Position numbers and translations under genes: made by a program | Shown here: positions 12,095 to 57,706 of the stretch, piece by piece | Position numbering within the stretch: the first letter of the stretch is position 1 | Layout: each line of letters begins with the position of its first letter | Notes under the pieces: model-generated | Told to the model about the DNA's origin: nothing | Database searches by the model: none | The model's input: the letters and a program-made list of their open reading frames with translations, nothing else | Source of the DNA: Echinicola soli | Lineage (GTDB): Bacteria > Bacteroidota > Bacteroidia > Cytophagales > Cyclobacteriaceae | DNA length: 64,000 bases | Reading direction: 5' to 3' | NCBI RefSeq assembly: GCF_006575665.1 | Contig: NZ_CP041253.1 | Location: forward strand, 1,431,501-1,495,500

Positions 12095-12642
12095 CAGTTT
12101 GGGGATCAAGCGGAAAAGTTGGGGGGATTAGGGTTGGTTTCGATAGCACGCAGATGATGCAGATTAATAAGATTTACGCTGAATTTTTATAATAAACGCG
12201 ATTTAAAATACCGTCCTTGCGAATGCAGAGCAACGGAGTGAAGCAATCTCGTTTTCTTAATACGGGATTGCCACGTCGCAAGCTCCTCGCGATGACGGAT
12301 TTATACTGATTTTATAATCTACACATTCCTATTGCTACATTAAAGAGAAATATGCTTGCCAAAACCACTTGGAAATCTCTCATCTTCCAGAAATATTACT
12401 TGGTCCTCAAAATGTGCTAAAAAGGAGGCAAACGAAAAAGTTGAGGGCATGAATCCCTTTATTTTAAAAGGATTTCTTTTTTGTTTTTTTGCCACAAAGA
12501 TTCTAAGACCCAAAGCTGTTTGTTTTCCATGAAATTTGGAATCCGCCTACAAAACACTTCGTGTCTTGGCGACTTCGTGGCGACATACCAAATGAATATA
12601 AATCTTCTCCCGCCCCAGAAATATTGATTGATCCCAGTTTGG
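12095..12642 (+). mobile_element. Family-A miniature element, copy 1, with target duplication
   Basis: The element spans 12103-12634 (532 bases). Its ends are GGATCAAGC and GATTGATCC, a 9-bp terminal inverted repeat with one mismatch. Immediately outside lies a perfect 8-bp direct duplication, CAGTTTGG at 12095-12102 and 12635-12642. The interior matches copies at 50455 and 57141 almost throughout. A vestigial end-like sequence, CCAGAAATATTACTTGGTCC, lies inside at 12387-12406. No transposase is encoded, so it must be mobilised in trans. GG ends with 8-bp duplications are compatible with the ISL3 or IS1595 type, which is only a suggestion. Confidence 0.88.
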
Positions 12643-12697
12643 TGGGCGGTGATCAGTTGAGTACTGCCAATTTAGAATTTTATGATCCTCAGTCCCG

Positions 12698-12745
12698 AAA
12701 TAAAACAGCCCTTTCCGGCTTAAGCCGGAAAGGGCTGTTTTATTT
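12698..12745. terminator. Bidirectional terminator, 48-bp perfect palindrome
   Basis: A perfect 24+24 palindrome centred at 12721/12722 with arms AACAGCCCTTTCCGGCTT and AAGCCGGAAAGGGCTGTT extended by AAATAA and TTATTT. The T-rich flanks on both strands make it a factor-independent terminator in either direction. It lies just beyond the 3' end of the sigma-factor operon (12759) and next to mobile-element copy 1. Confidence 0.85.
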
Positions 12746-12758
12746 CTATGGTGTGCGT

Positions 12759-12995
12759 TTAGACTTTTTCGAGTCCGGAAGACCTGGCTTTCTTAAGGAT
12801 AGACTCTACGGTTTTTTCAGATGGTTCCATTACCACCTCATTGAGCCGGCCAAGCATATCCAGTGTATCCAAATATTCTTGCAATAAGCATTCATCTTTT
12901 TGCAAAATCTGCTCAAAGGCAATGCTTTCCATTTCGCTCATTTCCTGATAGACATATTGTATCAGTTGTTCACTTGGGGTAAAATATTTTGTCAT
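12759..12995 (-). CDS. Small protein coupled to the ECF sigma factor
   Basis: A 78-residue acidic, mostly helical protein without membrane segment, starting MTKYFTPSEQ. An in-frame start three codons upstream (13004) is possible. It overlaps the last 26 bases of the sigma-factor gene in another frame, suggesting coupled translation. Small proteins of this kind often follow such sigma genes in Bacteroidota. A role as a modulator of the sigma factor is inferred from position only; no zinc-binding anti-sigma motif (HxxxCxxC) is present. It ends just before a strong bidirectional terminator. Confidence 0.75.
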   Translation of the reverse strand: MTKYFTPSEQLIQYVYQEMSEMESIAFEQILQKDECLLQEYLDTLDMLGRLNEVVMEPSEKTVESILKKARSSGLEKV

Positions 12996-13572
12996 AGGCA
13001 ACATTTATTTGTTTCAACTTTTTCCGCATGTTGATAAGCGCATACCGCATTCTTCCAAGTGCCGTGTTGATGCTTACACCCGTCTGGTCGGCAATTTCCT
13101 GAAAACTCAAATCCATGTAATGCCGCATGATCAACACCTGCTTTTGGCTTTCAGGCAGTTCATCGATGAGGTCCCTTACCAGGGCATGAGTTTCGTCCTT
13201 GACCTTTTGGTCTTCGACATTGGAATCAGCAAATTTTAGTGTATTGAACAGATTCGAACCGTCTTCCATCATGATGAATGGATAACGCTTCATTTTTCTG
13301 AAATAGTCCACCGCTAAGTTGTGCGCAATCCGCATCAACCAAGGCTGAAATTTTCCTTCTTCGTTATATCGGTCAGAGTTAAGGGTTTGAATTACTTTCA
13401 CAAACACGTCTTGCAGTAAATCCTCTGCTAAACCCTGATCTTTTACTATCATATAAATCGTCGTGAACACACGGGATTTATATTTATCTACCAACACTTC
13501 GAAAGCAGCTTCACTCCCATTTCTGTACTGAGCGATCAATTCGCTGTCTTTCGGTCTTAACCTTTTACTCAT
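12970..13572 (-). CDS. RNA polymerase sigma factor, ECF (sigma-70) family
   Basis: A 200-residue ECF sigma factor. Region 2 (about residues 25-95) has AFEVLVDKYKSRVFTTIYMI, AEDLLQDVFVKVIQTL and FQPWLMRIAHNLAVDYFRK. Region 4 (about 135-190) has LPESQKQVLIMRHYMDLSFQ followed by EIADQTGVSINTALGRMRYA. No region 3 is present, as expected. It is a soluble core-RNA-polymerase partner directing a regulon not identifiable here. No transmembrane anti-sigma gene adjoins it; only the 78-residue overlapping protein follows, so control is probably at transcription level or through that protein. Confidence 0.93.
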   Translation of the reverse strand: MSKRLRPKDSELIAQYRNGSEAAFEVLVDKYKSRVFTTIYMIVKDQGLAEDLLQDVFVKVIQTLNSDRYNEEGKFQPWLMRIAHNLAVDYFRKMKRYPFIMMEDGSNLFNTLKFADSNVEDQKVKDETHALVRDLIDELPESQKQVLIMRHYMDLSFQEIADQTGVSINTALGRMRYALINMRKKLKQINVAYDKIFYPK

Positions 13573-14125
13573 AAATTCTGACGTTTAAATAACGTAGAAG
13601 TCTACTTCATATTGCGGGATTTGGGGTTGAAACAAATTCTGTCAAAGTCAAATGTATATATTTGAAATACACAATGCAATGAAATAACTGATTTTTTTGT
13701 TTAAATTATACGTAACATTAGCCTGTGATCAAAATATAAATTCGATTATTTCCTGTATACCAAATTATAAATTGATTATATTTTTGACAAAAATAATCCT
13801 CATATAGGTCAATTTTTGTACCAATATATCAGAACCATAGAGTATACATGGAGGTTTAATAAAAAATCTTTTTAAAGTAATAAAATTTAATATATTTCGT
13901 AATAAGCGGGTCACGCTTATTGTGGAACTGTCTGTGTTTCTGTGGAAATTTTCAACAATCTAGATTTAATGTTACATGTATCAATTGTTTATAACAAAGA
14001 TTTATCCAAAAAGGAGTAGTTGAAGGCCCGTTTGATGAAGGATTGAGCCATGAGGGAACTTTTCTAGTGAATTCAGCTTTAAACAAATTACCAATTCACA
14101 GGTTGACTTGGTATCTTTGTAAGCT
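13573..14125. other. AT-rich intergenic region between divergent genes
   Basis: These 553 bases separate the divergent sigma factor and uvrA genes and carry no credible frame. A small hairpin AATAAGCG/CGCTTATT lies at 13901-13921 without T-tract. A perfect TATCTTTG -7 motif at 14111-14118 ends only 7 bases before the uvrA start. Confidence 0.5.
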
Positions 14126-16942
14126 ATGAATGAGACAACTGCCTTGAATCCATCATCGATAGAGAATTTAGACCCTAAATCATATATCATCATCAAAAAC
14201 GCCCGGGTAAACAACCTGAAAAACCTGAGTGTGGCCATTCCCAGAAATAAACTGGTGGTCGTAACAGGACTGTCAGGTTCCGGAAAGTCCAGTTTGGCCT
14301 TTGATACCTTGTTTGCTGAGGGCCAGCGGATGTATGTGGAGAGCCTGAGTTCCTATGCCCGTCAATTTTTGGGGAGAATGGAAAAGCCGGATGTAGAATA
14401 CATCAAGGGCGTTTCTCCGGCCATTGCCATTCAGCAAAAGGTAACCACCAAAAATCCCAGGTCTACAGTAGGCACCACCACAGAGATCTATGATTATCTC
14501 AAGCTCCTGTTTAGCAGAATCGGCCATACGATATCCCCCATCAGTGGGGAAGAAGTAAAGCACCATACCGTTACGGATGTGGTGGATTTTATCCATAGCT
14601 TCGAAGAGGGCAAAAAAGTAATGATCAGCTGTCCTTTACAGACCAATGCCTCCCGAAGCATGGAAAAAGAACTGGAAATTCTATTACAAAAAGGATTTAC
14701 ACGGATTATTATTGATGGAGAGGTGTATTATGTGGAGGAGCTGCTGGAGGAAAAAAGTATTCCTGAAGGTGACATAGAAATCCTGATCGATAGGGCTGTA
14801 GTCAGGAAAGAAGACGAAGACAATCATTTCCGTATAGCAGATAGTGTGCAGACGGCTTTCTTTGAGGGACACGGCGATTGTTTTGTGGTAGTTCCTGGAA
14901 AAGAATCGAGAAAATTCAGTGACCGTTTTGAGCTGGATGGAATTTCTTTCGAGCTTCCATCAGTCAATTTCTTTAGCTTTAACAATCCCTACGGCGCCTG
15001 TAGGACCTGTGAGGGTTTTGGTTCGGTGCTGGGCATCGATCCGGATTTGGTGGTTCCTGATAAGTCCCTTTCCGTTTATGAAGGTGCCATCGCCCCTTGG
15101 CGGGGAGAGACCACCAAAAAATGGGCTACTCCACTGATCAAAAACGGCATTCACTTTGATTTTCCCATTCATAGACCTTATGAAGAGCTCGATGAGGAGC
15201 ACAAAGAACTGATCTGGAAAGGCAATAGTCATTTCAAAGGGCTCGATGCATTTTTTGAGCATTTGCAGAGTAAGACCCACAAAATCCAGTATAGGGTGAT
15301 GCTATCACGCTTCCGTGGGAGAACTACATGCCCTGACTGTAAGGGGACCAGGCTCCGAAAAGATGCTGCCTATGTCAAAGTCGACGGCCATTCCATCACC
15401 GACATTGTGCTGATGCCGATCGACAGGGCACTGGAATTTTTCCAAACTATCCAACTTACTGAAGGAGAGAAAAAAACGGCCAATCGACTTCTCAAGGAAA
15501 TCTTAAACCGACTGGAGTATATCGATAAAGTTGGTCTGGGCTATTTGACGCTAAATCGCCTTACCTCCAGCCTCTCGGGCGGGGAATATCAGCGGATCAA
15601 GCTGGCCACTTCACTGGGAAGTGCTTTGGTAGGATCAATGTATATACTGGATGAGCCGAGCATTGGCCTGCATCCCAGGGATACCGATCGGCTGATATCG
15701 GTGCTCAAATCCCTTCGGGACATGGGCAATACGGTAATTGTGGTAGAGCATGAGGAAAAAATCATGAAGGCTGCCGATGAAATTGTGGACATTGGGCCGG
15801 ATGCTGGCGTCAATGGCGGGGAACTGGTTTTTCAAGGTGATTTGGAAAACCTTATTGCCCATGGAGAAACCTACACCGCAAAATACCTGAAGGGAGTAGA
15901 AAAAATAGATATCAAGCAGGGAAACAGAAAGTGGAAGGATAAAATCCTGATCAATGGAGCTCGTGAAAACAACCTTAAAAACATCAATGTTCAGGTTCCG
16001 CTACATGCCCTTACAGTGATCACTGGGGTCAGTGGCTCTGGCAAGTCTACTTTGATCAAGAAAGTATTGTACCCAGCATTGGGCAAAATGCTGGGCACGG
16101 TAATCGATGAGACGGGAAAATTTGATAAGTTGGGCGGAGACTATAAATCCATTAGCCAAGTGGAATTTGTGGACCAAAACCCAATCGGAAAGTCTTCCCG
16201 GTCCAATCCCGTAACGTATGTGAAAGCCTATGATGCTATTAGAAGCTTATTTGCTGATCAGCCAGTGGCCAAACAGCGGGGCTATAAACCAGCCTTCTTT
16301 AGCTTTAATGTGGACGGCGGTCGCTGCGAAGCTTGCCAAGGGGAAGGCACGCAGAAAATAGAGATGCAGTTTATGGCCGATATTTTTCTTACCTGTGAAT
16401 CCTGTAAGGGAAAGCGCTTCAAAAACGAGATCCTTGACATCACTTATAAAGACAAAAACATAGCCGATGTGCTTGGGATGACCATTGATGAAGCCATGAC
16501 ATTCTTCCAGGAGAAAAATGCCATCATCTCCCGTTTGCAGCCGCTGCAGGAGGTTGGTCTGGGCTATATTGGTCTTGGGCAGTCATCAAACACTCTCAGT
16601 GGAGGCGAAGCCCAGCGGGTAAAGCTGGCTTCCTTTCTGGGCAAAGGAGGCAACAAAGCCAAAGACCATGTACTGTTTATCTTTGACGAACCCACCACTG
16701 GTCTACACTTTCATGACATTAAGAAACTGTTGTATTCCATCAATGCCTTGATAGAGGAAGGGCATTCGGTGATCATTATTGAGCACAACACTGAAGTCAT
16801 CAAATCTGCCGACTGGGTGATTGATCTAGGACCGGAAGGTGGTGAACGCGGAGGAAACGTGACCTTTGAAGGTACACCGGAAGCACTGGGGGAGGTAGAG
16901 GACAATTATACCGCAAAATACCTAAGAGAGTCGTTTTCTTAA
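14126..16942 (+). CDS. uvrA: Excinuclease ABC subunit A
   Basis: A 938-residue UvrA, the damage-recognition ATPase of nucleotide excision repair. Two ABC modules are complete: Walker [10 protein letters not shown] near residue 48 and GVSGSGKST near 633, and signature [12 protein letters not shown] near 482 and [12 protein letters not shown] near 823. The zinc modules show CRTCEGFG near 291 and CPDCKG near 402, then CEACQGEG near 733 and CESCKG near 756. Length and motifs are of the canonical type rather than the shorter drug-resistance paralogues. The gene stands alone. It may have a very short leader, because the promoter-like TATCTTTG ends 7 bases before the ATG. Confidence 0.97.
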
Positions 16943-17137
16943 TGGAATGTTAGATAATAATTGTCAATCGATGTGAAAGAAACTTTTCCGATGGTTTTTG
17001 GGTTGAAAAACTTAAGTCCGGAAGATGTATGTTTGGGCTAATTGGCTGCAAACCATCATGTCAAGAAATGCAGATTGAAGATTTATGCGAAATCAATTTA
17101 TAATCATATAGGTTGTTAAGATTTTTATCGAGAAGAA

Positions 17138-18184
17138 ATGAAACATCAAATTTATCATCAAGTCCTTGTATGGGCATTTTTAGGTCTCTTTTTTTCATGT
17201 AATACTCCGCAGGCTACAGAGCGTCCTTCTCCCATGGGCTGGAAGGAGATCACCACTCCCACCGAAGCGTCCCTAAGGGGTCTTTCCCCCTTGACAGCGG
17301 ACATTGTGTGGGCGACGGGCAGTAATGGGTGCTGGATGCTAACCATGGATGGTGGCGAGCATTGGGAAAAGGGTGTGATCGCTGGACTGGACACTGTGGA
17401 TTTTAGGGATATTGAAGCCTTTAATGCCAAAACGGCGGTTGCTGTTTCCGCAGGGCAGCCGGCGGTTATTTATAAAACTACCGATGGCGGGAAGTCATGG
17501 GAGAAGAAATACCAAGGGCCTGAAGAAGCCTTTTTGGACGGATTGGCCTTTGTGGATGAAAGAAGAGGGTATGCATATGGTGATCCTGTAGATGGAAAAT
17601 GGATGGTGCTGCTCACCCTAAATGGCGGGGATTCTTGGGAGCCGCTTAGCCGGACACCTGAAGTCCCTGATGGAGAAGCCGGCTTTGCGGCAAGTGGTTC
17701 GGGGATTTTGGCCAAAGGCCATGAAATCTGGATCGCCAGTGGTGGTATTAAGAGCAATATTTATTATTCGGAAAATGGCGGTATCGATTGGGATACCATT
17801 CCGGCACCATTTATTCAGGGGAAGCCTTCTCAAGGCATCTTCTCCCTCACTTTTATGAACAAAAGGCATATTGTCGCTGTCGGCGGGGATTATCTTGATC
17901 CCGATCGTGCTTCCGGGAACAGTGCTTTTTCACTCGATCATGGCAAAACGTGGAAGTCCACGGAAGGCAAACCTCCCGCTGGCTATCGATCAGGAGTGGC
18001 TTATTTTCCAGAAAGGAGTTGGCTGATAGCAGTGGGCCCTAATGGTAGTGATTATTCCTCCGATGGCGGGGAGAATTGGACGAAATTTTCCGATTATGGC
18101 CTCCATGCCATAAAATTGGCCAAGAATGGGGAGACCATTTGGGCTTCTGGTGCTGAAGGTAAAATTGCCAAACTGGAGTATTAA
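17138..18184 (+). CDS. YCF48/BNR-type beta-propeller lipoprotein
   Basis: A 348-residue exported protein. The N-terminus ends in a lipobox-like LGLFFSC, so it is probably a lipoprotein anchored after Cys22. The mature part has repeated blocks of the form TxDGGxxWE (TMDGGEHWEKG, TTDGGKSWEKK, TLNGGDSWEPL, SENGGIDWDT, SLDHGKTWKS, SSDGGENWTK), six or seven propeller blades like those of YCF48/HCF136 and BNR/sortilin-type proteins. Bacteroidota relatives are often labelled oxidoreductase without support. The function is unknown; no partner gene adjoins. Confidence 0.8.
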   Translation: MKHQIYHQVLVWAFLGLFFSCNTPQATERPSPMGWKEITTPTEASLRGLSPLTADIVWATGSNGCWMLTMDGGEHWEKGVIAGLDTVDFRDIEAFNAKTAVAVSAGQPAVIYKTTDGGKSWEKKYQGPEEAFLDGLAFVDERRGYAYGDPVDGKWMVLLTLNGGDSWEPLSRTPEVPDGEAGFAASGSGILAKGHEIWIASGGIKSNIYYSENGGIDWDTIPAPFIQGKPSQGIFSLTFMNKRHIVAVGGDYLDPDRASGNSAFSLDHGKTWKSTEGKPPAGYRSGVAYFPERSWLIAVGPNGSDYSSDGGENWTKFSDYGLHAIKLAKNGETIWASGAEGKIAKLEY

Positions 18185-18378
18185 AGGGTACTGTCTGGCT
18201 GGTATCTTACTAATTCTACCAGAATCACTTGCTTAAAAATAATTATAGGGATTAATTATTAAATCAGGTGGTTTAATATTATATTAGGAAAGGCTTGACT
18301 AGAAACAGTAGCTTTTTATCTTACTTGGAGCAGTATAAGGCTAAGTCATGCTATTTAATCCTATAACCTTGACGCAAA

Positions 18379-19125
18379 ATGTTTGAAATAATTCCATCTA
18401 TATGGATCATGAACGGAAAGTGTGTCCGTCTCGAAAAAGGTGACTTTAGCACCGAGCAGGTGATATCTGATAACCCCTTGGAAATTGCCCAGGAGTTTGA
18501 GAACTGCGGTATTGAGCGGGTTCATTTGGTGGATCTGGACGGTGCTAGGAGGGGAAGTCCAAAAAACTATCATATTTTACATACTATTTCTGCTTATACT
18601 TCGCTAAGTGTCGATTTCACGGGAGGTGTAGGTACAGATGGAGATATTATCAAGGTTTTTGAACATGGAGCCAAAACCATTACTGCTGCTACTGTAGCGG
18701 CCAATTCACCCGAAAAGTTTGCCCAATGGTTGATTTCATACGGAAGGGAAAAAATCAACATGGCGGCAGATACTGATCCCAGAGACCATCTGATCAAGAT
18801 CAGAGGTTGGCAAAAAAAGACCGATATCCATCTTTTTGATCAGATTTCCTATTTTTACGATAGAGGATTAAAATATCTGAAATGTTCTGATATTACCAGA
18901 GAAGGTGTCATGGAAGGGCCAAACTTTGAGCTATATGGAGAAATTGTGGAGCGATTTCCAAATCTCCATGTCGTCGCCAGTGGTGGTGTCCGAAATGTGG
19001 AGGATTTTAAGCGGTTAAAGGATTTGGGTTTGAGAGGTGTGGTTTTTGGGAAAGCTTATTATGCTGGAAAAATTACTGCAGAAGAGCTGAAGACCTTTAT
19101 CGCCAGCTGCAAGGCGCCCCTTTAA
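18379..19125 (+). CDS. HisA-like TIM barrel with altered active site
   Basis: A 248-residue phosphoribosyl-ribonucleotide isomerase (HisA/HisF) family protein. The outline is HisA: GKCVRLEKGDFS, VHLVDLDGARRGSP, and C-terminal phosphate-loop motifs VVASGGVRNVEDF and GVVFGKAYYAGKI. However, the strand-1 motif, usually PAID with catalytic Asp8, reads PSIW (Trp9). The first phosphate loop reads FTGGVGT instead of GGGIR, and the TDIxRDG block reads SDITREG. The second catalytic Asp region (AADTDPR) keeps an Asp. It lies outside any his operon. It may be a HisA paralogue with another substrate or no isomerase activity; a divergent true HisA cannot be excluded. Confidence 0.8.
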   Translation: MFEIIPSIWIMNGKCVRLEKGDFSTEQVISDNPLEIAQEFENCGIERVHLVDLDGARRGSPKNYHILHTISAYTSLSVDFTGGVGTDGDIIKVFEHGAKTITAATVAANSPEKFAQWLISYGREKINMAADTDPRDHLIKIRGWQKKTDIHLFDQISYFYDRGLKYLKCSDITREGVMEGPNFELYGEIVERFPNLHVVASGGVRNVEDFKRLKDLGLRGVVFGKAYYAGKITAEELKTFIASCKAPL

Positions 19126-19692
19126 GAGGAAGGAAAATTGATCGGTATTGTGTCTATTGAAATAGATTGGACAGGTTACTGCTGTAATTTGTAATTCCGA
19201 ATTATATTTTAAATCTACTGACGTCCGACTAAATTTAAAATAAGATCAAAAACTGTCTTTAAATAGAAATTTGAGGGTTTTTATCCCAATCCCTAAAATG
19301 ACCCCCATCCCCTTTAGGGGGATTTAGGGGTGAGAACAGTTGATTTTTTCAATTTAACGATTGTTTTCTCGGACGCTAGTATTTTAAAACCTTCATTTCG
19401 CGCCTGCCTTTGGCTGTAGACAGGCCTGTCTGGTGCCAAAGGCAGGCTTGTCTGGTGCCATAAGCAGGGAGAATGCGGCGTGGAAATCTCGGATTCAAAA
19501 GAATAGATTGCTTCACTCCGCTACCGCTGTGTTCGCAATGACGGTTTATTTTCGACCTTACGAGGAGCCTGCGACGTGGCAATCCCGTATTAAGAAAACG
19601 AGATTGCTTCACTCCATTACCAATGACGGCTTGATATCTATTTCATTTTCGAAATCAGGTTTATACTTCTTTACCAACTGTCATTATCCTCA
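19126..19692. repeat. Intergenic region built from dispersed repeats
   Basis: No gene is seen. Near 19300-19336 there is a hairpin on ccccatccccttta/tagggggattta. From 19410, caggcctgtctggtgcca occurs in near-tandem form with caggcttgtctggtgcca. AGATTGCTTCACTCC occurs twice (from 19505 and from 19601), and the second unit, with GTGGCAATCCCGTATTAAG before it, is the same repeat found inside the long family-A elements (for example 57529-57560). The region acts as a nest for repeats. Confidence 0.6.
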
Positions 19693-19848
19693 GAAATTAG
19701 GGGGCAAGCGAAAAAGTTGGGGGGATTAGGATTGGTTTCGATAGCACGCAGATGGCGCAGATTAATAAGATTTGCGCTGATTTTTTTATGATGGAGCACG
19801 CATTCCTATTGCTGAATTAAAGAGAAATATTGCTTGATCTGAAATTAG
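19693..19848 (+). mobile_element. Family-A miniature element, 140-bp minimal copy, with target duplication
   Basis: The element is 19701-19840, with ends GGGGCAAGC and GCTTGATCT. A perfect 8-bp duplication, GAAATTAG, flanks it at 19693-19700 and 19841-19848. The left 85 bases match the left part of the long copies, and the right 40 match their internal segment ATTCCTATTGCT..AGAGAAATAT. It lacks the dispersed repeat and the terminal extension found in the ~540-bp copies. It is non-coding and needs a transposase in trans. Confidence 0.85.
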
Positions 19849-19888
19849 TGCACAAAAATAATCCTGGCGTTCTTTGAGACTTTTTAGG

Positions 19889-20944: not shown

Positions 20945-21141
20945 GTAGATCTTTTCAGGGTGTTTTTGGTGTTTGCGGAAGGCGATAAGACACAGAAAAT
21001 TTCTGTTTTTACTGTTGAACCGGCCGTTTTTTTATTGTTCTAAACATTTTTTGCTAAAAGCGATAAGGTAAAACACGATAGAAATTCGAAATCCTTCAGC
21101 TGACAATATAGTCCTCCAATCATCCAACAACAGAAAAGAAA

Positions 21142-25689: not shown

Positions 25690-26153
25690 TGAGATATGAG
25701 ACCTGAGCATAACGTCCCCGAAAGTATCGAGGCAGGCTATTGCGAACGCATAGCAACGGAGTGAAGCAATCTCCTTCTCTTTAGACGAGACTGCCTCGTT
25801 CCCGATAGCCTCCGGGACAAGCTGTTCCTCCAGGCCTGGAGCAGGCAATTCGTCAAGCTTGGTCACAGCTCTCGTTATAGCAAAAAGGAGCAAAAATCCG
25901 GAGGAGTTTGAAAGGAATTGGTTTAAAATTCCATCCGGGGAAAGACCAATTATTACGATGTTTGACAATGAAATCTAATAATTAATCCGGTCAACTATAA
26001 TCAGGGAAGTACACTCGCATGGAGTCGGGAGACTCAGTCTTCGTGCTCCTGCGTCAGAGACGGCGGGACAACGCTAAGACGTGGTTGTGGTTCTCTGCCC
26101 CGGTACTAAGAAATATTGAGTCCCTGACAAAAAAATATAAGGATAAAATAAGC
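25690..26153. repeat. Repeat-rich intergenic region
   Basis: These 464 bases carry GCAACGGAGTGAAGCAATCT (25753-25772), which is also in the interior of the long family-A elements. A REP-like hairpin, cccgatagcctccggga, lies at 25801-25817, and a G+C-rich stretch at 26030-26100 reads like part of another dispersed repeat. No gene is evident; upstream extension of the DoxX frame into this region is rejected. Confidence 0.5.
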
Positions 26154-48631: not shown

Positions 48632-48676
48632 AAATATAGTTAATTTTGAACATCAAAAAAACTAAAGAACCAGATC

Positions 48677-49324: not shown

Positions 49325-49368
49325 GTACTAGTCACGCTAAATTGCTGGCTATTTTCAAGTAAAATAGG

Positions 49369-49407
49369 AAAAGCTGTATCCTGAGTTTTGGGGTACGGCT
49401 TTTTTTA
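49369..49407 (+). terminator. Terminator after the nitroreductase gene
   Basis: AAAGCTGTATCC pairs with GGGTACGGCTTT allowing G-U pairs and is followed by a run of T (49400-49407). Confidence 0.75.
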
Positions 49408-49415
49408 TTCAATTT

Positions 49416-49656
49416 AACTCGGATTATACATTAGGAATCGTCGTAGCCTGTCCTCCCGAAATCCTTCGGGACAGGCTGACGGATATCGGGAAGAGCTGAA
49501 AGTGTAATAAAATCAGCTAGTTTGGAGGAGTGAGTGTAGCACCGCTACGGTGTACCCTGTCTGGCCGCCAGGTAAAACCGAAAAGCGTAGCGGCTGATTT
49601 TGAAGCAATTTCAGGTCGCAACACTTGTGCGCCGCGGCGTAGATAGGCTAATGCTT
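49416..49656 (+). repeat. Family-B element, copy 2
   Basis: The left end AACTCGGATTATACATTAGG and the following 200 bases match the copies at 9018-9233 (reversed) and 63804 onward, including the GTCCTCCCGAAATCC hairpin and the shared phrase AGCACCGCTACGGTG. The right end (TAATGCTTAAAGTT) is diverged, so the inverted ends are less exact. It is non-coding. Confidence 0.75.
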
Positions 49657-49681
49657 AAAGTTCACTTTTAAACTATGACGT

Positions 49682-50272
49682 ATGAATGATGCTAATATGC
49701 ATGATGTACCGGCCAATTATCCGAAAGTCCTAGCTAAGTGCCAAGAAATAGGTTTTAGTATGCCTTCAGACCAGTATATCGGTGCATTGCTGAAGACCTT
49801 GATGTTGTCAAAGTTCGGTGGTAATTTTCTGGAAATAGGTACGGGAATTGGCCTTTCATTGGCTTGGATGGTGGATGGGCTCAGTGAAAAGGCCACATTG
49901 ACCACCGTGGATAATGATCCAGCCCTAACTGCGATAGCAGCAGACTTTTTTGGTCACGATAAGCGTGTAAAGGTGGTTTGTGCAGATGGGGGTGAATGGA
50001 TCAGAAGCTATTCGGGTGATGCTTTTGATTTGATTTTTGCTGATGCCTGGCCAGGTAAGTACAGCCATCTGGACGAAACGCTGGCCATGTTAAAAGTAGG
50101 AGGCTTTTATATTATCGACGATATGGATACCCAGCCAAACTGGCCAGCAGGTCATGAAGAAAATGTGGAAAAGCTTATTGCTACATTGGAGTCTCGCTCT
50201 GATTTGTCTTTATGTAAGATGAATTGGTCCACGGGGCTGGTAGTGGCGGTGAAGACGGAAGATTATAAGTAG
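49682..50272 (+). CDS. Class I SAM-dependent methyltransferase, O-methyltransferase-like
   Basis: A 196-residue methyltransferase. The SAM-binding motif I is NFLEIGTGIGLS, motif II TVDNDPA, and the acidic DLIFADAWPGK block and IIDDMDTQ follow. These fit the catechol-O-methyltransferase-like / class I family, where Asp residues also bind a divalent metal. It begins 26 bases after the end of a family-B repeat. The substrate is not recognisable and no pathway neighbour is present. Confidence 0.82.
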   Translation: MNDANMHDVPANYPKVLAKCQEIGFSMPSDQYIGALLKTLMLSKFGGNFLEIGTGIGLSLAWMVDGLSEKATLTTVDNDPALTAIAADFFGHDKRVKVVCADGGEWIRSYSGDAFDLIFADAWPGKYSHLDETLAMLKVGGFYIIDDMDTQPNWPAGHEENVEKLIATLESRSDLSLCKMNWSTGLVVAVKTEDYK

Positions 50273-50438
50273 TGAGATATGAGACTTGAGACAAATTGTT
50301 TCTCTCCGCTGCGGCAGCGTGCTCAGGTGGGATGCTTTGGCATAAAGAGAAACCCTAGAGGGCTTGTCTTGTTTCAGACAGGATTCCAGCTAAATCTTCC
50401 AAATGCCAACGCAGCGCCTTTGTCAGAAAGAATTTGAT
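50273..50438. other. Intergenic segment with repeat fragments
   Basis: The stretch gagatatgagacttgagac after the methyltransferase stop resembles 25690-25705. No gene is seen. Confidence 0.4.
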
Positions 50439-51187
50439 ATGAATTGGAAAAGAAGGATCAAGCTGAAAAGTTGGGGGGGTTAGGGTTGGTTTCGATAGCA
50501 CGCAGATGATGCAGATTAATAAGATTTACGCTGATTTTTTATAATAAACGCGATTTAAAATACCGTCCTTGCGAATGCAGAGCAACGGAGTGAAGCAATC
50601 TCGTTTTCTTAATACGGGATTGCCACGTTCCCGATAGGTCGGGACAGGCTATACTTCCTCGCTATGACGGATTTATACTGATTTTATAATCTACACATTC
50701 CTATTGCTAAATTAAAGAGAAATATGCTTACCAAAACCATCTGGAAATCTCTCATCTTCCAGAAATATTGCTTGGTCCTCAAAATGTGCGAAAAAGTTGA
50801 GGGCATGAATCCCTTTATTTCAATAGGATTTCTTTTTTGTTTTTTTGCCACAAAGATTCTAAGGCCCAAAGCTGTTTGTTTTCCATGAAATTTGGAATCC
50901 GCCTACAAAACACTTCGTGTCTTGGCGACTTCGTGGCGACATACCAAATGAATATAAATCTTCTCCCGCCCCCAGAAATATTGCTTGATCCGAAAAGAAT
51001 AGAAACTGCTTTTGAGGACTTCGCTAAGCACCATAAAGTCTCTTTAAGGGATGATCAGAAGTACTATTTCTATGGTGTGAAAGTTACTTATAGTGTTTTA
51101 TTTGAAACCGAATATGGGTATTGTGATCTTAAAAGTGTTTATTATAAAAAGTTGAATCCCCATAATTTTAATGAAACTACCATTTAA
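50439..51187 (+). pseudogene. Small gene split by miniature element copy 2
   Basis: The start ATG at 50439 followed by AATTGGAAAAGA encodes MNWKR; the element then interrupts codon 6 at 50454. Removing 50455-50991 together with one GAAAAGAA duplication joins codon 6 as ATA and continues IETAFEDFAKHHKVSLRDD and KYYFYGVKVTYSVLFETEYG to a stop at 51185-51187. That gives a 67-codon frame that stays open throughout. As it stands, the reading frame is entered from inside the element instead. I do not recognise the product. The next small frame starts directly after its stop codon (TAAATG). Confidence 0.75.
50447..50999 (+). mobile_element. Family-A miniature element, copy 2, with target duplication
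   Basis: The element is 50455-50991 (537 bases), with ends GGATCAAGC and GCTTGATCC. A perfect 8-bp duplication GAAAAGAA lies at 50447-50454 and 50992-50999. The interior is nearly identical to copies 1 and 3 apart from small indels. It includes the internal vestigial end CCAGAAATATTGCTTGGTCC (50759-50778) and a cgttcccgataggtcgggac hairpin also in copy 3. It sits inside the small gene at 50439-51187. Confidence 0.9.
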
Positions 51188-51438
51188 ATGGCATTGAGTA
51201 AATCTTTACGAATTAAGGGTGATTCAGTAAAACGTAAAAGTTCCTTTTGGGGATTTGGAAAAAAGGAAATAAACAGACTCCTCTTTTAGAACTACTTGAA
51301 AAAACCAATTCAGAAGAAGTCACCTACAGTGATGATTTGCTTGAAATTAGGTTAAGGGAAATTCCAGAAACAATGGAGCGTTTGATTTTTTTGGAAGAAT
51401 CAATTATGAGGTGGCTCACTGACCTGGAGACTTTCTAA
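51188..51438 (+). pseudogene. Small frame with a frameshift, possibly programmed
   Basis: ATG 51188 (MALSKSLRIKGDSVKRKSSF) follows the preceding stop directly and reaches TAG at 51287 after 33 codons. A second frame, shifted by -1, continues GNKQTPLLELLEKTNSEEVT to a stop at 51436-51438. The only sensible junction is at A-AAA-AAG (51259-51265), a known -1 slippery heptamer in exactly the right phase; a shift there gives about 83 residues. Either the gene is decayed by a one-base indel or the shift is functional. The family is not recognised. Its upstream partner is broken by a mobile element, which favours decay. Confidence 0.5.
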
Positions 51439-51465
51439 ATAAATTATTGATCATTAATATCTGGA

Positions 51466-51879
51466 TCACTGCCCATTCACCGGTAACTCCCGATTATCTG
51501 ATCCGTCGTTTTGTTTGCCGACTTGGAGGACTTCATAGACGACGTGTTTGCTCGCGCCTCGCCAAGGCAGCTTGCCAAGGTATTCCCGGTAGCGGACTTC
51601 CACAAATTTGCCACTGGCCCTTTCCAGTTTTTCGGAAACATCCCCGTCGACACCGCTAAAGCGGAATTCATTGCTTTGCAGCGCCCCGGCAGTAGGGCTT
51701 TGAAAGCCTTCCTGTACCAAGCGTCCTTCCCAGGTTTTAAAGATAAAGCCTTTCTTTTCGTAATAATTTAAAGTTCCACCCTTAACACCTTCCGCAAAAA
51801 CAAAGAAGTACCTCCAATAGATAAATCCTGCCATTATGATTAGCAGCGAAAAAATAGCAATCTTAACGTACTTGTTCAT
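51466..51879 (-). CDS. Hypothetical membrane-anchored protein
   Basis: A 137-residue protein with one N-terminal hydrophobic helix (about residues 6-28) and a soluble domain beginning EGVKGGTLNYYEKKGFIFKT and containing GFQSPTAGALQSNEFRFS. This resembles a small Bacteroidota family sometimes mislabelled 6-phosphogluconate dehydrogenase; there is no nucleotide-binding fold and no support for that name. The domain is probably an all-beta periplasmic module. It is convergent with the frameshifted small frame. Confidence 0.7.
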   Translation of the reverse strand: MNKYVKIAIFSLLIIMAGFIYWRYFFVFAEGVKGGTLNYYEKKGFIFKTWEGRLVQEGFQSPTAGALQSNEFRFSGVDGDVSEKLERASGKFVEVRYREYLGKLPWRGASKHVVYEVLQVGKQNDGSDNRELPVNGQ

Positions 51880-52208
51880 GGTAAAATCAGCTAGTCAGCA
51901 GTAAAATCTTCAATAGTAGTTTTTTTGATGGTCTAAAACCTTCAAATGACGATTTTAAGTTCTGACTATTTGGGGAATAAAACAATAGTAGATGTCATTA
52001 ATATATAAGAACCCACTGAAATAGCCTATTGTTGGATAAGGAAAATCGATTATGGTAATTCTACTAAAAACCACATTACATTTACAGAAAGGGTACATTT
52101 GACATAATTATTTGTATTTTTGTTTACCCATTTATTTTTGGTGTGTGCAATCAAACTCTTTTTATAGGATTGATTTTTTGGTGGATAGAAGGGGAGCATT
52201 AAAAATTT
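51880..52208. other. AT-rich intergenic region
   Basis: No gene, repeat or terminator was recognised in these 329 bases between two divergent genes. Confidence 0.4.
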
Positions 52209-52937
52209 TTGGGGTTGTTTAACGTAACTACTGCTCATTTGGAAATACGACCTAATCAAAAAAGGGCCAAATTGGCTCAGCTGTTTGTCTATTTGGTAAT
52301 GGCCCTTCATGCTGTCAGTATTATTTCAGGCTATATGCAGTATGACCTCCTGATTCGTGCGGAGGAAATGGGCATCACTGATCAAGAGGCCGAAGTAAAT
52401 GACTTAAGAGAGCAGGTGATAGCGATTTTGATCATCGCGACCTACATCGTATCCGCCATCGTTTTTCTTAATTGGTTTCGCAGGGCCTACTTTAACTTGC
52501 ATACGTTGATGCCAAACCGGCTGGACTTTTCAGAAGGATGGGCTGTAGGCGCTTGGTTTGTTCCTTTCATAAACCTCTACAGGCCTTATCGAATCATGAA
52601 GGAGCTGTTTGACGAGACCGAGTCTTATTTGAGAAGGAAGAAGGTGGCTTTTGATTCCCAGCATCAGGATGGTTTAGTGATCAGTTGGTGGGTAGTCTGG
52701 ATTTTGGGTGGATTTATCGATAGAATATCCTGGAGAATTTATGCCAATGCCGAAACGATTGACGAACTACTGGAAATGACAATCATGGACATGGTTTCCT
52801 CCGGAATCATTATCGTATGCGGAGTGTTGGTGGCCAGGCTTATCAAAGATTACAGTCAGCTGGAACAGATATTGGCCAATGAAAGCAACTACGAAAACGC
52901 ACTAAACCCAACTGAGGAAATAGCCTTGTTAGATTGA
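52209..52937 (+). CDS. DUF4328 domain membrane protein
   Basis: A 242-residue protein with about four hydrophobic helices (near residues 28-50, 73-95, 150-175 and 195-215). The block FLNWFRRAYFNLHTL followed by FSEGWAVGAWFVPFINLYRP is the recognisable core of DUF4328. It may start at TTG 52209; no in-frame ATG is available until residue 31, after the predicted first strand, so a non-ATG start is likely. It is followed 26 bases later by a DUF805 gene. The functions of both are unknown. Confidence 0.82.
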   Translation: MGLFNVTTAHLEIRPNQKRAKLAQLFVYLVMALHAVSIISGYMQYDLLIRAEEMGITDQEAEVNDLREQVIAILIIATYIVSAIVFLNWFRRAYFNLHTLMPNRLDFSEGWAVGAWFVPFINLYRPYRIMKELFDETESYLRRKKVAFDSQHQDGLVISWWVVWILGGFIDRISWRIYANAETIDELLEMTIMDMVSSGIIIVCGVLVARLIKDYSQLEQILANESNYENALNPTEEIALLD

Positions 52938-52963
52938 ATCTTTTACCAACTAAAAAATAGATC

Positions 52964-53344
52964 ATGGAATACTACAAAAAAGTACTTAGCCAATACGCTG
53001 ATTTTAACGGGCGTGCACGACGAAAAGAATACTGGATGTTTGCGCTATTTAATTTATTAGTATTAATCGTTTTGAGCATAGTGGCTGTTATGCTTTCAAT
53101 GGTGCTCTCAAGTGAGCTCCCTTATATCTTATTATTTGGTGCCTATACTTTGGCCATTATCATTCCTTCTCTGGCCGTAGCTGTGCGCAGGCTCCATGAT
53201 ATTGGTAAAAGCGGATGGATGTACTTGGTTGGCTTGATTCCGATGATTGGTGGGATATGGCTACTAGTACTTTTGGTTACAGAAGGTGAGCACGGAGCCA
53301 ATCAATACGGCGAAGATCCTAAAGAAGGGGAGAAAAGCTTTTAA
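52964..53344 (+). CDS. DUF805 domain membrane protein
   Basis: A 126-residue protein with three or four helices. It opens YYKKVLSQYADFNGRARRKE, then has the YWMFALFNLLVL helix and VAVRRLHDIGKSGWMYLVGL, which is the diagnostic RRLHDxGxSGW motif of DUF805, and ends GEHGANQYGEDPK. It is an inner-membrane protein of unknown function, transcribed with the DUF4328 gene. Confidence 0.92.
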   Translation: MEYYKKVLSQYADFNGRARRKEYWMFALFNLLVLIVLSIVAVMLSMVLSSELPYILLFGAYTLAIIIPSLAVAVRRLHDIGKSGWMYLVGLIPMIGGIWLLVLLVTEGEHGANQYGEDPKEGEKSF

Positions 53345-53566
53345 ATCTCCGGTGATTATCGGTCAAGACAAGGAGGCTGCTCATACGTCAACGTCATTAC
53401 CAATTCAATGAATTTCGTATAAGGCAACCTCTCGATATTTTCTTATACTTTGGCCTATTTGATTATGATGCTAAGCTGTACCGGGGCGTAGTCCTCGGTA
53501 CCACTTTCCATTTCTCGAGTCTTTTCTCTTGGGACTTTGTACCTCGTACTCCATTTTACCCCACCC

Positions 53567-54169
53567 TTACCTTATCATACGCTTCACCTCCTGGTGGCGA
53601 AAGCACTGCATCAGATGGTCATTGACGAGTCCGGTGGCCTGCATGTGGGCATAGATCGTGGTGCTGCCAAGAAATTTAAATCCTCGCTTTTTGAGGTCTT
53701 TGGCAAGTTTGTCGGATTCTGGAGTGGTGGCCTTGGCATCCGTCATGTTTTTTAACTGGCCATCTATGGGCTTGCCGTTTACAAAATCCCAGATATAACT
53801 CGTAAAACTGCCCACTTCCGCTTGTACTTCCATAAAGCGTTTGGCATTATTGATGGCAGCAGCGATTTTCAGCCTGTTGCGGATGATGCCAGCATCCAGG
53901 AGCAGCTCTTCTACCATGCTGTCTGGATAATCCGCCACCTTCTTATAGTCGAAGTCTGCAAAAGCCTTTCGATAGCCTTCGCGTTTCTTTAGAATGGTGG
54001 CCCAGCTCAGTCCGGCCTGGGCACTTTCCAATACCAAAAACTCAAAATGGACCCGGTCACTATACACGGGTACGCCCCACTCTTCATCATGGTATTTGAT
54101 ATAATCTTCAAACCCGAGGCACCATGGGCATCGAATTTTTTCACTTTGGTTGATTAGGAAATTGGCCAT
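53567..54169 (-). CDS. tag: DNA-3-methyladenine glycosylase I
   Basis: A 200-residue helix-hairpin-helix glycosylase that excises 3-methyladenine from alkylated DNA. Motifs are RCPWCLGFEDYIKYHDEEWG (with zinc-type Cys and His), FEFLVLESAQAGLSWATILK and RKAFADFDYKKVADY, and the C-terminal zinc ligands in STTIYAHMQATGLVNDHLMQ then CFRHQEV. Length is normal. The gene stands alone between two intergenic regions of about 200 bases. No adaptive-response regulator is nearby. Confidence 0.95.
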   Translation of the reverse strand: MANFLINQSEKIRCPWCLGFEDYIKYHDEEWGVPVYSDRVHFEFLVLESAQAGLSWATILKKREGYRKAFADFDYKKVADYPDSMVEELLLDAGIIRNRLKIAAAINNAKRFMEVQAEVGSFTSYIWDFVNGKPIDGQLKNMTDAKATTPESDKLAKDLKKRGFKFLGSTTIYAHMQATGLVNDHLMQCFRHQEVKRMIR

Positions 54170-54379
54170 CTAAAAACTATCTGTGGTTATCACTTATAGA
54201 AAATCTTTTACCTGGACAATTTAGCGTTTTGCCAATAGTTACCCAAGGAAAGCACCAAACTAGTGTGCGGCCGATGGAAATATTATCCATCGATGGATAC
54301 ATAAAAATAATGGAAAATGAGTTTATCTGTGGGAAAGTGGCCCATTTACCACTATTAAGTCGACATTAGCTTACCTTTA

Positions 54380-55444
54380 TCACTCTCGCCATATTTTGCT
54401 GTCTTCGGTTATAAACCAAGTTTGATCACTGTTGAGGGAAGATGCTGAAAGCTTAAAGCGTGTGGCACTCACCTCGAATTGAGGATGGAATTTCTTGAAG
54501 TCACCAGCATCTGGCAATTGGGAAAGCTGGGTGGCAAACGTTCCATGGTTTTTGAAATAGCGGTGCTGTTTATGATAAAGCGAGCGTAGTGCATCCTTGA
54601 CGGCTTCATCTTTTGCGAGCTGGAAAGGGACTTTTTCTGTACCTGCTGGTCTGGCCGCAAATTGGACGTAGCCCCAGTTTTCAGGAATGTGCATGTTAAT
54701 ATGCCCTTGGGGAGACCACACCCAGTTGTATTCGGGATAGTGTTTGCCCGTTTCAGGATTGGTTTTTTTGATGTATTGCCCGTCCTTGGTGTCCAGCTGC
54801 CACTGTACCCTGGAAAAATTGATCCGCCACTGCTGGCCATCGGCTGGTGGGGAATAGGCAGGTCCCTTTTGGGAAAGTGCTTTCCAGGGAATGGCCATTT
54901 CTACGGTCCAGGCGCTGTCCTTGTCAGTGGGATCATTAACAGTGCCTTGGAGGGAAAGGCCTTTTTGGAATCCATTTATATTCCAGCCGTTAATGGGAGC
55001 GCCGCCATTACGGTAAGGCTTGGTCATAAGCAGGTCCCACTCGGTGCCAAGTGCATTGATCTCCAGCTCATAGTAATTATGGGTATCACCATCGGGATCG
55101 ATAAACACTTCAATGTCATTTTGGTGAAATATCACGGATTCCCTTTCAGTGTAGGTGGCCCATAAGTCCGGCTCTTCCATCCATACCGCGATGTAGAGGT
55201 TTTCCTCATCCCAAAGCATCTTTAGCTTGGTGTCGAAAAGTGGTGTAGGCTTGACTTCTCCCTCGATATCCACAAATAAATCGGACCATGCTGCGTTTTG
55301 CCAATCCTTCTCCTCCATTCTTCCGTCCATTTTTAGGGGAGCGGTGGCTTGGTAGGCGACATAATGTCTCCTGTCTTTCAATTGCTGCCCAGAAAGCAAA
55401 AAGGGAAACATCAGCAAGAGGAGTAGCAATCTAGGAATAACCAT
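54380..55444 (-). CDS. Carbohydrate-binding family 9-like exported protein
   Basis: A 354-residue exported protein with signal peptide MVIPRLLLLLLMFPFLLSGQ from the ATG at 55444; a TTG two codons earlier (55450) is less likely. The domain (about residues 28-260) resembles CBM9-like/DOMON proteins, with PLKMDGRMEEKDWQNAAWSD, LKMLWDEENLYIAVWMEEPD, NDIEVFIDPDGDTHNYYELE and WTVEMAIPWKAL, all family landmarks. A C-terminal helical region follows. It probably binds sugars or a ligand at the cell surface, without catalytic motif. No polysaccharide-utilisation genes adjoin. Confidence 0.85.
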   Translation of the reverse strand: MVIPRLLLLLLMFPFLLSGQQLKDRRHYVAYQATAPLKMDGRMEEKDWQNAAWSDLFVDIEGEVKPTPLFDTKLKMLWDEENLYIAVWMEEPDLWATYTERESVIFHQNDIEVFIDPDGDTHNYYELEINALGTEWDLLMTKPYRNGGAPINGWNINGFQKGLSLQGTVNDPTDKDSAWTVEMAIPWKALSQKGPAYSPPADGQQWRINFSRVQWQLDTKDGQYIKKTNPETGKHYPEYNWVWSPQGHINMHIPENWGYVQFAARPAGTEKVPFQLAKDEAVKDALRSLYHKQHRYFKNHGTFATQLSQLPDAGDFKKFHPQFEVSATRFKLSASSLNSDQTWFITEDSKIWRE

Positions 55445-55646
55445 TGTCAAATAATTTTAGTAATAATAATATCTTTACAAAGATATTTAAATATGTAGGG
55501 GCTACCGTGATGGGAAGTGATATTTTACCGGAATCTTCCACCAGTGGTTCAGCTATCGCAATGGAGAAAGATGTCGAATCACCGTAAAAATTAGATTTTG
55601 TAGGTGGATTTATCCATTAATTTAGGAGGGATGCTTATTTTTGGGC

Positions 55647-56993
55647 ATGATGAAATGGGAAAAGCTGCTAAGTGCAGGTCGCGCAGATTTTAAAAACAAG
55701 GCCAATCAAAGCCAAGAGCAATACCGAAGTGAGTTTGAAAGGGACTATGACCGGATTATCTTTTCGGCACCGTTCCGGAATTTACAGGATAAGACACAGG
55801 TATTTCCATTACCTGAGTTGGATTTTGTGCACACCAGGCTTACCCACAGTTTAGAAGTGTCCAGCGTGGGCAGATCGCTGGGTAAATCGGCAGGAGAGTA
55901 TTTGCTCAAAAAATACCCTTCTCTTTCTGAGATGTGTATTGGGTCCAGTGATATTGGTGCGATTGTGGCGGCGGCGGCACTTACCCATGATCTCGGCAAC
56001 CCTCCTTTTGGCCATGCCGGAGAAGACGCCATTTCTGACTTTTTTAGGTTTCACCCTTCCGGGCAGTGTTGGAGAGACCATTTGCGGGATGAAGAATGGG
56101 CAGACATGACTCATTTTGAAGGCAATGCCCAAGGATTCAGGATGCTTCTTGACAAAAACAATGGCCTTCAGGTTTGCTACGCTACATTGGCAGCATTCAC
56201 CAAATACCCCAGGCCTGCTGCTGTGGAGAAGATAGATCCCAGAAGACGAAGCCAAAAGAAGTTCGGATTTTTCGCTGACCAGTTATCGCTTTTTAAGCAA
56301 TTGGCAGATACGCTGGGGATTCCTTCATCTGGTAAAAATACCTGGTTCAGGCATCCATTGGCATTTTTGGTAGAGGCGGCAGATGATATTTGTTATAGCA
56401 TTATTGACTTGGAGGATGGTTGTACGCTTGGGCTGGTACAGTTGGAGGAGGCAATTCCACTTTTGGCAGAGATCATCGGGGAGAAATTTCAGGAAGAAAA
56501 GCTCCATTCTATCAAAACTTCTGCACAAAAATTGGCTATTTTGAGGGCCATGGCCATCAGTAGATTGGTAGAGGAGACGGTTGCAGCTTTTAGAACCCAT
56601 GAAGAAGCCATGCTTTCCGGAGAATTTGATCAAGCCCTGACCGATTGCATTCCTTCTTCAAAGGCTTTGGACAAAATCACCAAATTGTCCGTAAAGAAGA
56701 TATATCGCTCGCAGCCTGTACTGGAAAAAGAGGCGGCAGGGTTCCAAGTGTTGGAGGGGCTGCTGGAAGTTTTCTCCAGTGCTCTCTATAACCAATATTT
56801 CGATACGGAGAGATTTTCCGGTAAGGACAAGAGCATATTGAGGCTTTTGCCTGAAGTGTTTAAGCCTGATAATGAACTTCAGATGCCCTACTTATTGCTC
56901 CGAAATTTGGTGGATTTTATTGCCGGAATGACAGATAAGTATGCGCTTTCACTTTACCGGAAAGTCAAAGGAATTGCCCTTCCCGGTGCTTGA
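55647..56993 (+). CDS. dgt: Deoxyguanosinetriphosphate triphosphohydrolase
   Basis: A 448-residue HD-domain dNTP triphosphohydrolase that releases triphosphate from dGTP or other dNTPs. The opening RNLQDKTQVFPLPELDFVHT then RLTHSLEVSSVGRSLG supplies His ligands and the substrate loop. The HD pair is in ALTHDLGNPPFGHAGEDAI. Later EAADDICYSIIDLEDG carries the third Asp. Starts at 55647 and 55650 are adjacent ATGs; a TATTTTTG -7-like box (55636-55643) ends 3 bases before, implying a leaderless or almost leaderless transcript. The gene stands alone. Confidence 0.94.
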   Translation: MMKWEKLLSAGRADFKNKANQSQEQYRSEFERDYDRIIFSAPFRNLQDKTQVFPLPELDFVHTRLTHSLEVSSVGRSLGKSAGEYLLKKYPSLSEMCIGSSDIGAIVAAAALTHDLGNPPFGHAGEDAISDFFRFHPSGQCWRDHLRDEEWADMTHFEGNAQGFRMLLDKNNGLQVCYATLAAFTKYPRPAAVEKIDPRRRSQKKFGFFADQLSLFKQLADTLGIPSSGKNTWFRHPLAFLVEAADDICYSIIDLEDGCTLGLVQLEEAIPLLAEIIGEKFQEEKLHSIKTSAQKLAILRAMAISRLVEETVAAFRTHEEAMLSGEFDQALTDCIPSSKALDKITKLSVKKIYRSQPVLEKEAAGFQVLEGLLEVFSSALYNQYFDTERFSGKDKSILRLLPEVFKPDNELQMPYLLLRNLVDFIAGMTDKYALSLYRKVKGIALPGA

Positions 56994-57132
56994 TTTGGTC
57001 TAATTACTGAAGCGTGTAAGATGCTGTTTTTACAGTGTTTGTGGGTATGGATATTTCTATCCGGACGTTTATACTTTTAAGGCTGGAGCTGCGCTATATG
57101 ATTCGCTGTGTTCTTCTTATTCGTTGAACCGG

Positions 57133-57706
57133 CATTGCAGGGATCAAGCAATATTTCTGGGGGTGGGAGAAGATTTATATTCATTTGGTATGTCGCCACG
57201 AAGCCGCCAAGACACGAAGTGTTTTGTAGTTGTAGGCGGATTCCAAATTTCATGGAAAACAAACAGCTTTGGGTCTTGGAATCTTTGTGGCAAAAAAACA
57301 AAAAAGAAATCCTATTAAAATAAAGGGATTCATGCCCTCAACTTTTTCGTTTGTCTCCTTTTTAGCACATTTTGAGGACCAGGCAATATTTCTGGAAGAT
57401 GAGAGATTTCCAGGTGGTTTTGGTAAGCATATTTCTCTTTAATTTAGCAATAGGAATGTGTAGATTATAAAATCAGTATAAATCCGTCATAGCGAGGAAG
57501 TATAGCCTGTCCCGACCTATCGGGAACGTGGCAATCCCGTATTAAGAAAACGAGATTGCTTCACTCCGTTGCTCTGCATTCGCAAGGACGGTATTTTAAA
57601 TCGCGTTTATTATAAAAAATCAGCGTAAATCTTATTAATCTGCATCATCTGCGTGCTATCGAAACCAACCCTAATCCCCCAACTTTTCCGCTTGATCCCA
57701 TTGCAG
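57133..57706 (-). mobile_element. Family-A miniature element, copy 3, with target duplication
   Basis: The element is 57141-57698 (558 bases), inverted relative to copies 1 and 2. Its ends are GGATCAAGC and GCTTGATCC exactly. A perfect 8-bp duplication CATTGCAG lies at 57133-57140 and 57699-57706. The interior contains the AACGAGATTGCTTCACTCCG repeat and the hairpin gtcccgacctatcgggaac seen in copy 2. Non-coding frames that read outward from its end are treated as incidental. Confidence 0.9.

Follow-up and report, generated by a model that had tools for sequence, protein, structure and literature searches.

Miniature inverted-repeat transposable elements (MITEs) are a well-known kind of element, and two transposase families bear on the MITEs described here: ISAon1 (NF049916 and NF049917) and ISL3 (PF01610 and NF033550), the latter with a DDE transposase related to that of ISAon1. 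We analyzed a 64,000-nucleotide stretch of the Echinicola soli genome, here called the window (G000:C1:1431501-1495500; the host genome is one contig of 5.55 Mb), which contains four elements of a repeat family. Like MITEs, members of the family are short, non-coding and multi-copy, with inverted ends, a duplication of fixed length and the ends of an autonomous element; they differ in that their ends are asymmetric beyond a 9-bp inverted part and their interior is modular, with several length classes. Full ISAon1 elements in a genome of the same genus (G003) and in Chitinophagaceae bacterium DXS (where the right end has diverged) carry the same terminal sequences and 8-bp duplications. Unlike ISAon1, the window elements contain no transposase frame, and only their ends are common with the G003 insertion sequence (IS). 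We consider it very probable (about 0.92) that this MITE family was moved in trans by a transposase of the ISAon1 family, which is encoded by two open reading frames (ORFs) and is a relative of ISL3.

An earlier note on the window, made by reading the DNA without database searches, had reported four elements with GGATCAAGC-type inverted ends, each flanked by a different perfect 8-bp repeat. A script located all of them at the positions below, and the 8-mers are identical within each of the four pairs and different between pairs.

12095..12102, unstranded: target duplication CAGTTTGG, left copy (element 1)
12103..12634, + strand: MITE copy 1, 532 bp, long class, with core, module resembling repetitive extragenic palindromic (REP) sequences and 3' extension
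12211..12298, + strand: REP-like palindromic module (CCGTC...GACGG) in copy 1; repeat families D6/I10, limits by eye
12407..12634, + strand: 3' extension of copy 1, past the internal right-end-like sequence (internal right end at 304 bp); its first bases are the constant TCAAAATG
12635..12642, unstranded: target duplication CAGTTTGG, right copy (element 1)
19693..19700, unstranded: target duplication GAAATTAG, left copy (element 2)
19701..19840, + strand: MITE copy 2, 140 bp, short, with neither module nor extension
19841..19848, unstranded: target duplication GAAATTAG, right copy (element 2)
50447..50454, unstranded: target duplication GAAAAGAA, left copy (element 3)
50455..50991, + strand: MITE copy 3, 537 bp, long class
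50563..50670, + strand: REP-like palindromic module in copy 3, limits by eye
50779..50991, + strand: 3' extension of copy 3 (internal right end at 324 bp)
50992..50999, unstranded: target duplication GAAAAGAA, right copy (element 3)
57133..57140, unstranded: target duplication CATTGCAG, left copy (element 4)
57141..57698, - strand: MITE copy 4, 558 bp, long class, reverse orientation
57141..57375, - strand: 3' extension of copy 4 (internal right end at 323 bp)
57484..57591, - strand: REP-like palindromic module in copy 4, limits by eye
57699..57706, unstranded: target duplication CATTGCAG, right copy (element 4)

The ends form an asymmetric pair, GGATCAAGC-GGAAAAGTTGGGG on the left and, read inwards, GGATCAAGC-AATATTTCTGGGG on the right, in which only the outer 9 bp (GGATCAAGC) make a clear inverted repeat that becomes imperfect further in. 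Element 2 has the left end GGGGCAAGC, and one base of the right-hand 9 bp is altered in each of elements 1 and 2. The ORF lists showed no transposase gene within any of the four elements, as expected of the miniature, non-coding family that had been proposed: ORFs of ≥90 aa that touch elements 1 and 2 cross the element ends, and none of ≥120 aa touches elements 3 and 4.

Copies and duplications across the host genome

Used as a query of the host genome, copy 3 gave at least 81 matching pieces, a lower bound in that the best 40 of 284 candidates were scored; eight long copies are 94-97% identical to it. A genome search with the two ends and a table of their flanking 8-mers, which the earlier note had suggested, was then made. 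With up to three mismatches, the host contains 121 left ends and 175 right ends, a count that takes in the right-end-like sequences inside long copies, and the reversed-pattern controls gave 0 matches for both; the left-end control gave 0 in all 59 genomes searched. Ends were paired by their sequence alone and the duplication was scored afterwards, to avoid selecting on the duplication. A right end had to lie 100-1300 bp downstream of a left end, and 78 of the 103 left ends in the host stretches examined were paired in this way. Perfect 8-bp duplications flank 34 of the 78 pairs and represent 34 different 8-mers; the insertions are independent, as the earlier note had held for the four window elements. 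A 7/8 match was found in 10 further pairs. Across 1000 shuffles of the flanks, the mean was 0.49 perfect duplications, most of which we attribute to flanks returned to their own element.

In only 8 of the 34 perfect pairs is the right-hand 8-mer followed by G, the base with which elements usually begin, and the duplication is therefore 8 bp and not 9. The target 8-mers carry A at position 4 (22/34) and T at position 5 (20/34), and are 68% AT versus 57% in the examined host DNA. At one 183-bp copy (L084, G000:C1:4153023-4153205), the target duplication GGTCAAGC resembles the end of another copy; one element apparently inserted into the end of another.

We searched the joined flanks of host elements in ten genomes of the same genus, querying six sites whole, and three of the six were unoccupied in G005. 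This genome runs through without an element at site 2632785 (81% over 459 bases), at site 1755351 (75% over 460 bases, the alignment being gapped around the junction) and at site 1539574 (70% over ~390 bases, crossing the junction by 40). Base-by-base alignment was made for 2632785 and 1755351, and at neither is the one 8-mer kept exactly. In G010 and G008, too, the two flanks of 2632785 are near each other with no element between them, as are the flanks of 1755351 in G003 and G010; the remaining three queried sites gave one-sided or repeat matches among the matches listed. Empty sites that already held both 8-mers, which the earlier note had named as evidence to the contrary, were not seen: the three readable sites are simply unoccupied in G005. 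In G003, the gap between the genes matching those beside 2632785 (L380, G003:C1:2638700-2640300) is taken up by different DNA that has a host-family type of left end, and since L380 and the host element have only a 27-base end in common, this gap may have been hit twice.

The mosaic interiors and the copies without a duplication would fit an origin of the common ends and flanking 8-mers by recombination or chance in a repeat-rich genome. We rejected this explanation as extremely improbable given the 34 perfect duplications against 0.49 in shuffles, the empty reversed-pattern control in 59 genomes and the unoccupied sites in G005.

ISAon1 elements and the candidate transposases

The left-end pattern, sought with up to two mismatches in 59 genomes including the host, occurs in 15: the host, 7 of the 10 others of its genus, 6 of 26 from other genera of the family and 1 of 22 from elsewhere in the order; single matches in some genomes may be due to chance. 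In G029, the ends enclose a two-frame transposase, the pieces of which match ISAon1_upstream (NF049916; 4e-41) and ISAon1_downstr (2.5e-62 and 3.7e-50) in NCBIfam, with ISL3 (NF033550) as the next-best family at 1e-14 and 7e-20. Pfam assigned DDE_Tnp_ISL3 (PF01610) to the two downstream pieces and found no match for the upstream one. NCBIfam treats ISAon1 as a family of its own, although its transposase also scores as ISL3/PF01610. Matches to ISAon1_downstr above the cut-off of 250 were found in five of the 59 genomes, namely G003 (520 bits), G022 (one stop), G029 (541 and 525 bits), G046 and G055.

A full-length IS with the same ends and a transposase, sought as the earlier note had advised, was thus present in G003 (ISAon1_downstr, 520 bits) and was not detected in the host. 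It is 1412 bp long, with ends AGATCAAGCGGAAAAGTTGGGG / GGATCAAGCAATATTTCTGGGG and ACTATTAT duplicated on both sides, and its downstream ISAon1 frame is open (331 aa). Using blastn (E <= 0.01) against the examined host segments, we found matches confined to the first 20-28 and the last 20-37 bases of this element; host elements as deletion derivatives of this IS are accordingly unsupported, the ends alone matching. A tblastn search of the same segments with both of its frames gave one chance-level match (E 0.66). Chitinophagaceae bacterium DXS (CP128386.1) has a complete ISAon1 element of 1430 bp with left end GGATCAAGCCGAAAAGTTGGGG, duplication GAAAAATG, a diverged right end and both frames open. 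G055 has one of 1436 bp with GGGTCAATTGTAATTACTGGGG at both ends, duplication AAAAAAGC and an open upstream frame. Two ISAon1 copies in G029 (541 and 525 bits) have a right-type end on both sides. The upstream frame of the G029 element L202 is open, and the ISAon1 ends in G046 are GGATCAATTCCAAAATTTGTGGAG and GGATCAAGACCAAAAGTTGTGGAG (by eye), with no duplication. In the open ISAon1 elements L290, L205 and L202, the downstream frame overlaps the upstream frame and lies one base ahead of it (+1 or -2); frameshifting or a coupled start may link them.

The host itself encodes other candidates, and the earlier note had suggested that an ISL3- or IS1595-like enzyme acts in trans. Its ISL3 lead came close, ISAon1 being related to ISL3; IS1595 is unsupported, as its ends are of another kind. 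The two complete IS1595-type elements of the host (L091 and L092) end in TATGACTATTCGG / TATGATTATACGC (TATGA...), and their perfect 8-bp duplications are TTTCTTTA and TTTTAAAG; two further partial IS1595-type matches have no clear ends. The single intact ISL3 gene lies in an element that, like ISAon1, has an 8-bp duplication (TAAAAAAT) and, unlike ISAon1, has a single ORF of 405 aa and GGTTCTATATGG ends. Mobilization by the IS1595-type transposase or by the host's own ISL3 transposase would be in keeping with these duplications and with the presence of complete IS1595-type elements and an intact ISL3 gene. We nonetheless judge it very unlikely and rejected both as sources: neither type carries GGATCAAGC ends, and the matching ends are found on ISAon1. 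A search of the host genome detected no ISAon1 transposase, since the sole scoring sequences are two stretches of its ISL3 gene (52 and 43 bits versus the cut-off of 250), and no transposase was seen by eye in the flanking DNA examined at six left ends without a duplication-bearing partner.

The mechanism is an ordinary one. A full element would make the ISAon1 transposase, which would act in trans on the MITE ends, recognizing chiefly the outermost ~22 bp of either end. Insertion would take place at an 8-bp target, the repair of which would make the duplication. Interiors could drift, be swapped or be extended freely, as only the ends would matter; this would also account for the modular length classes and for the unrelated interiors in other genera described below. 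The host lineage would have lost the full ISAon1 element or never kept one, leaving its copies stranded. The window elements seem to have outlived the engine that carried them, and the host copies can probably no longer move unless ISAon1 re-enters the genome.

Several findings weigh against movement by an ISAon1 transposase. Transposition was not seen directly, movement being read from sequence comparison, and the partner enzyme is deduced from relatives, since the host has no detected ISAon1 gene. The left-end pattern occurs in only three of the five genomes with above-cut-off ISAon1, the other two having like but different ends; the G003 IS may be an inactive copy, its upstream frame being interrupted (89 aa), and it has no interior in common with the host copies. 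No 8-bp duplication was found at four ISAon1 elements, L203 (G022), L121 and L210 (G029) and L201 (G046), the flanks of L121 and L201 having been read by eye, and the matching 8-mers at L202 (G029) sit 2 bp off the element ends. In the host, 25 of the 103 left ends lack a partner at the pairing stringency within the examined stretch, and 34 of the 78 pairs match at 6/8 or less (10 at 6/8, 24 at ≤4/8). Copies without duplications, which the earlier note had held to count against transposition, thus do make up part of the family; we read the pairs lacking a good duplication as decayed or rearranged copies.

Interiors in the host and in other genera

The perfect copies of the host fall, when grouped by eye, near four lengths in 24 of 34 cases: 182-185 bp (7), 324 bp (1), 411-412 bp (3) and 530-558 bp (13); the other 10 are of various lengths from 140 to 646 bp. 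The classes of ~183, 324, 412 and 553 bp correspond to a 183-bp core with an optional REP-like module (~+141 bp) and an optional 3' extension (~+229 bp). This extension comes after the internal right-end-like sequence. Its first bases are TCAAAATG in the majority of long copies, and a degenerate left end appears soon after its start (by eye). Because an internal right end is here followed by a degenerate left end, the extension resembles a second element fused in tandem.

The module recalls REP-type palindromic intergenic repeats: in the long copies it is a palindrome of 88-108 bp, which the host genome also contains as a stand-alone repeat, whereas the whole element, unlike REP-type repeats, has transposon ends and target duplications. 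Of the 60 core-bearing pairs, 11 carry the module in forward and 14 in inverted orientation, and in 35 it was not detected; 10 of the 37 module probes in the examined stretches fall outside paired elements. Folding of the module stretch of copy 3 (50540-50690) was somewhat better than that of shuffled sequences (z -2.2), of which 5 in 200 did as well. Stand-alone REP-like modules lie at 19468-19525, 19564-19621 and 25740-25808 of the window.

Further host elements have the same ends and partly or wholly other interiors, with lengths of, for example, 386, 510, 646 and 1196 bp. The 1196-bp one (L144, G000:C1:1196641-1197836), which has ends of this kind and a duplication matching at 7/8, was rejected as a possible autonomous copy: it contains a tandem array of TGCCACAAAGG...-type units and no transposase was seen in it. 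The MITEs at 860586-861231 and 5005814-5006323 (G000:C1) have a common interior (TTAAAATAGTG.AGGG.CCGGAAAGCCGACTAGCTGAATT...), perhaps another captured element.

An exact search of GTDB r220 with the 22-base left end found 106 stretches, 80 of which were listed, with records near the window's genome perhaps omitted. Those listed come from Pedobacter, Taibaiella, Desertivirga, Echinicola arenosa, Chitinophagaceae and others. ISAon1 was matched inside the end in 22 of the 80 and not in 23; the other 35 stretches break off within 130 bp, too soon to reveal one. MITE-like elements with a perfect 8-bp duplication were found in Taibaiella (560 and 623 bp), in Desertivirga (192-193 bp, at three loci) and in the genomes G005 (347 and 348 bp), G012 (223 bp), G047 (214 bp) and G026 (three of 200 bp and one of 675 bp). 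We left out L308 (181 bp), the 8-mer of which belongs to the end sequence, and L276 (1045 bp), which has one mismatch. In E. arenosa (G007, locus L101), a 744-bp element with the same ends and a perfect 8-bp duplication contains a remnant of the ISAon1 upstream frame and, judged by this remnant, looks like an internal-deletion derivative.

We compared the interiors of 18 elements (11 from relatives, 7 from the host; 30 bp trimmed per end; E <= 0.001) and found no match between genera; the matches obtained were all within one genus. The 183-bp host core has no match in G026 or G047 and partial matches (70-96%) in G003, G005, G007 and G010.

The results connect an orphan family of abundant repeats with one particular family of transposases, through end sequences exact enough to find members across Bacteroidota. 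They also provide a system open to testing, made up of MITEs, the defined two-ORF transposase of relatives and a genome that has 121 left ends and no detected engine.

Placement and present role

Placement was analyzed for 40 perfect-duplication copies, 729803 being left out because its ends were misregistered. None of the 40 lies inside an ORF of ≥130 aa. Their nearest ORFs, assessed by eye, are convergent in 21 cases, divergent in 4, in the same direction in 14 and undefined in 1. For 21 convergent among the 25 convergent or divergent gaps, a two-sided binomial test gave p 0.0009; we take this bias as a lead only, since the ORFs are mechanical.

The bias (21/40 convergent, 4/40 divergent) could mean that the copies have lost the ability to transpose and are retained as structured repeats between genes, of a REP-like or terminator-like kind, with the duplications as old scars. 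The lack of a detected ISAon1 gene in the host and the presence of the folded, REP-like module in 25 of the 60 pairs with a core fit such a role, which concerns the present and is compatible with an ISAon1 origin. Set against it are the 34 different perfect duplications and the eight long copies 94-97% identical to copy 3, which indicate spread by transposition, and the short copies without the module; the placement itself could follow from selection against promoter hits. On balance, we consider this role unlikely.

A broader reading starts from the ends. ISAon1-type ends of ~22 bp recur in Echinicola, Taibaiella, Desertivirga and other genera of Bacteroidota with unrelated DNA between them, and such MITEs may be remade repeatedly by capturing new DNA and not by deleting one parent. 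On this view, the host family would be a clear product of serial capture (the 183-bp core, the module in both orientations and the degenerate element fused in tandem), and the bias towards convergent gaps would reflect retention as transcription-end signals. Taken as a whole, we hold this reading to be doubtful and put it forward tentatively.

Two other features of the window were recorded. A thiamine pyrophosphate (TPP) riboswitch (RF00059, 67 bits) at 11704-11800 (- strand) is its only Rfam match at the gathering threshold and lies directly upstream of a TonB-dependent receptor-like gene (9232-11619, - strand); given this adjacency, the gene may be thiamine-related. Another dispersed repeat of ~140 bp, containing AGCCTGTCCTCCCGAAATCCTTCGGGACAGGCTG, occurs at 9097-9247, 49413-49552 and 63790-63934, with copies 85-94% alike.

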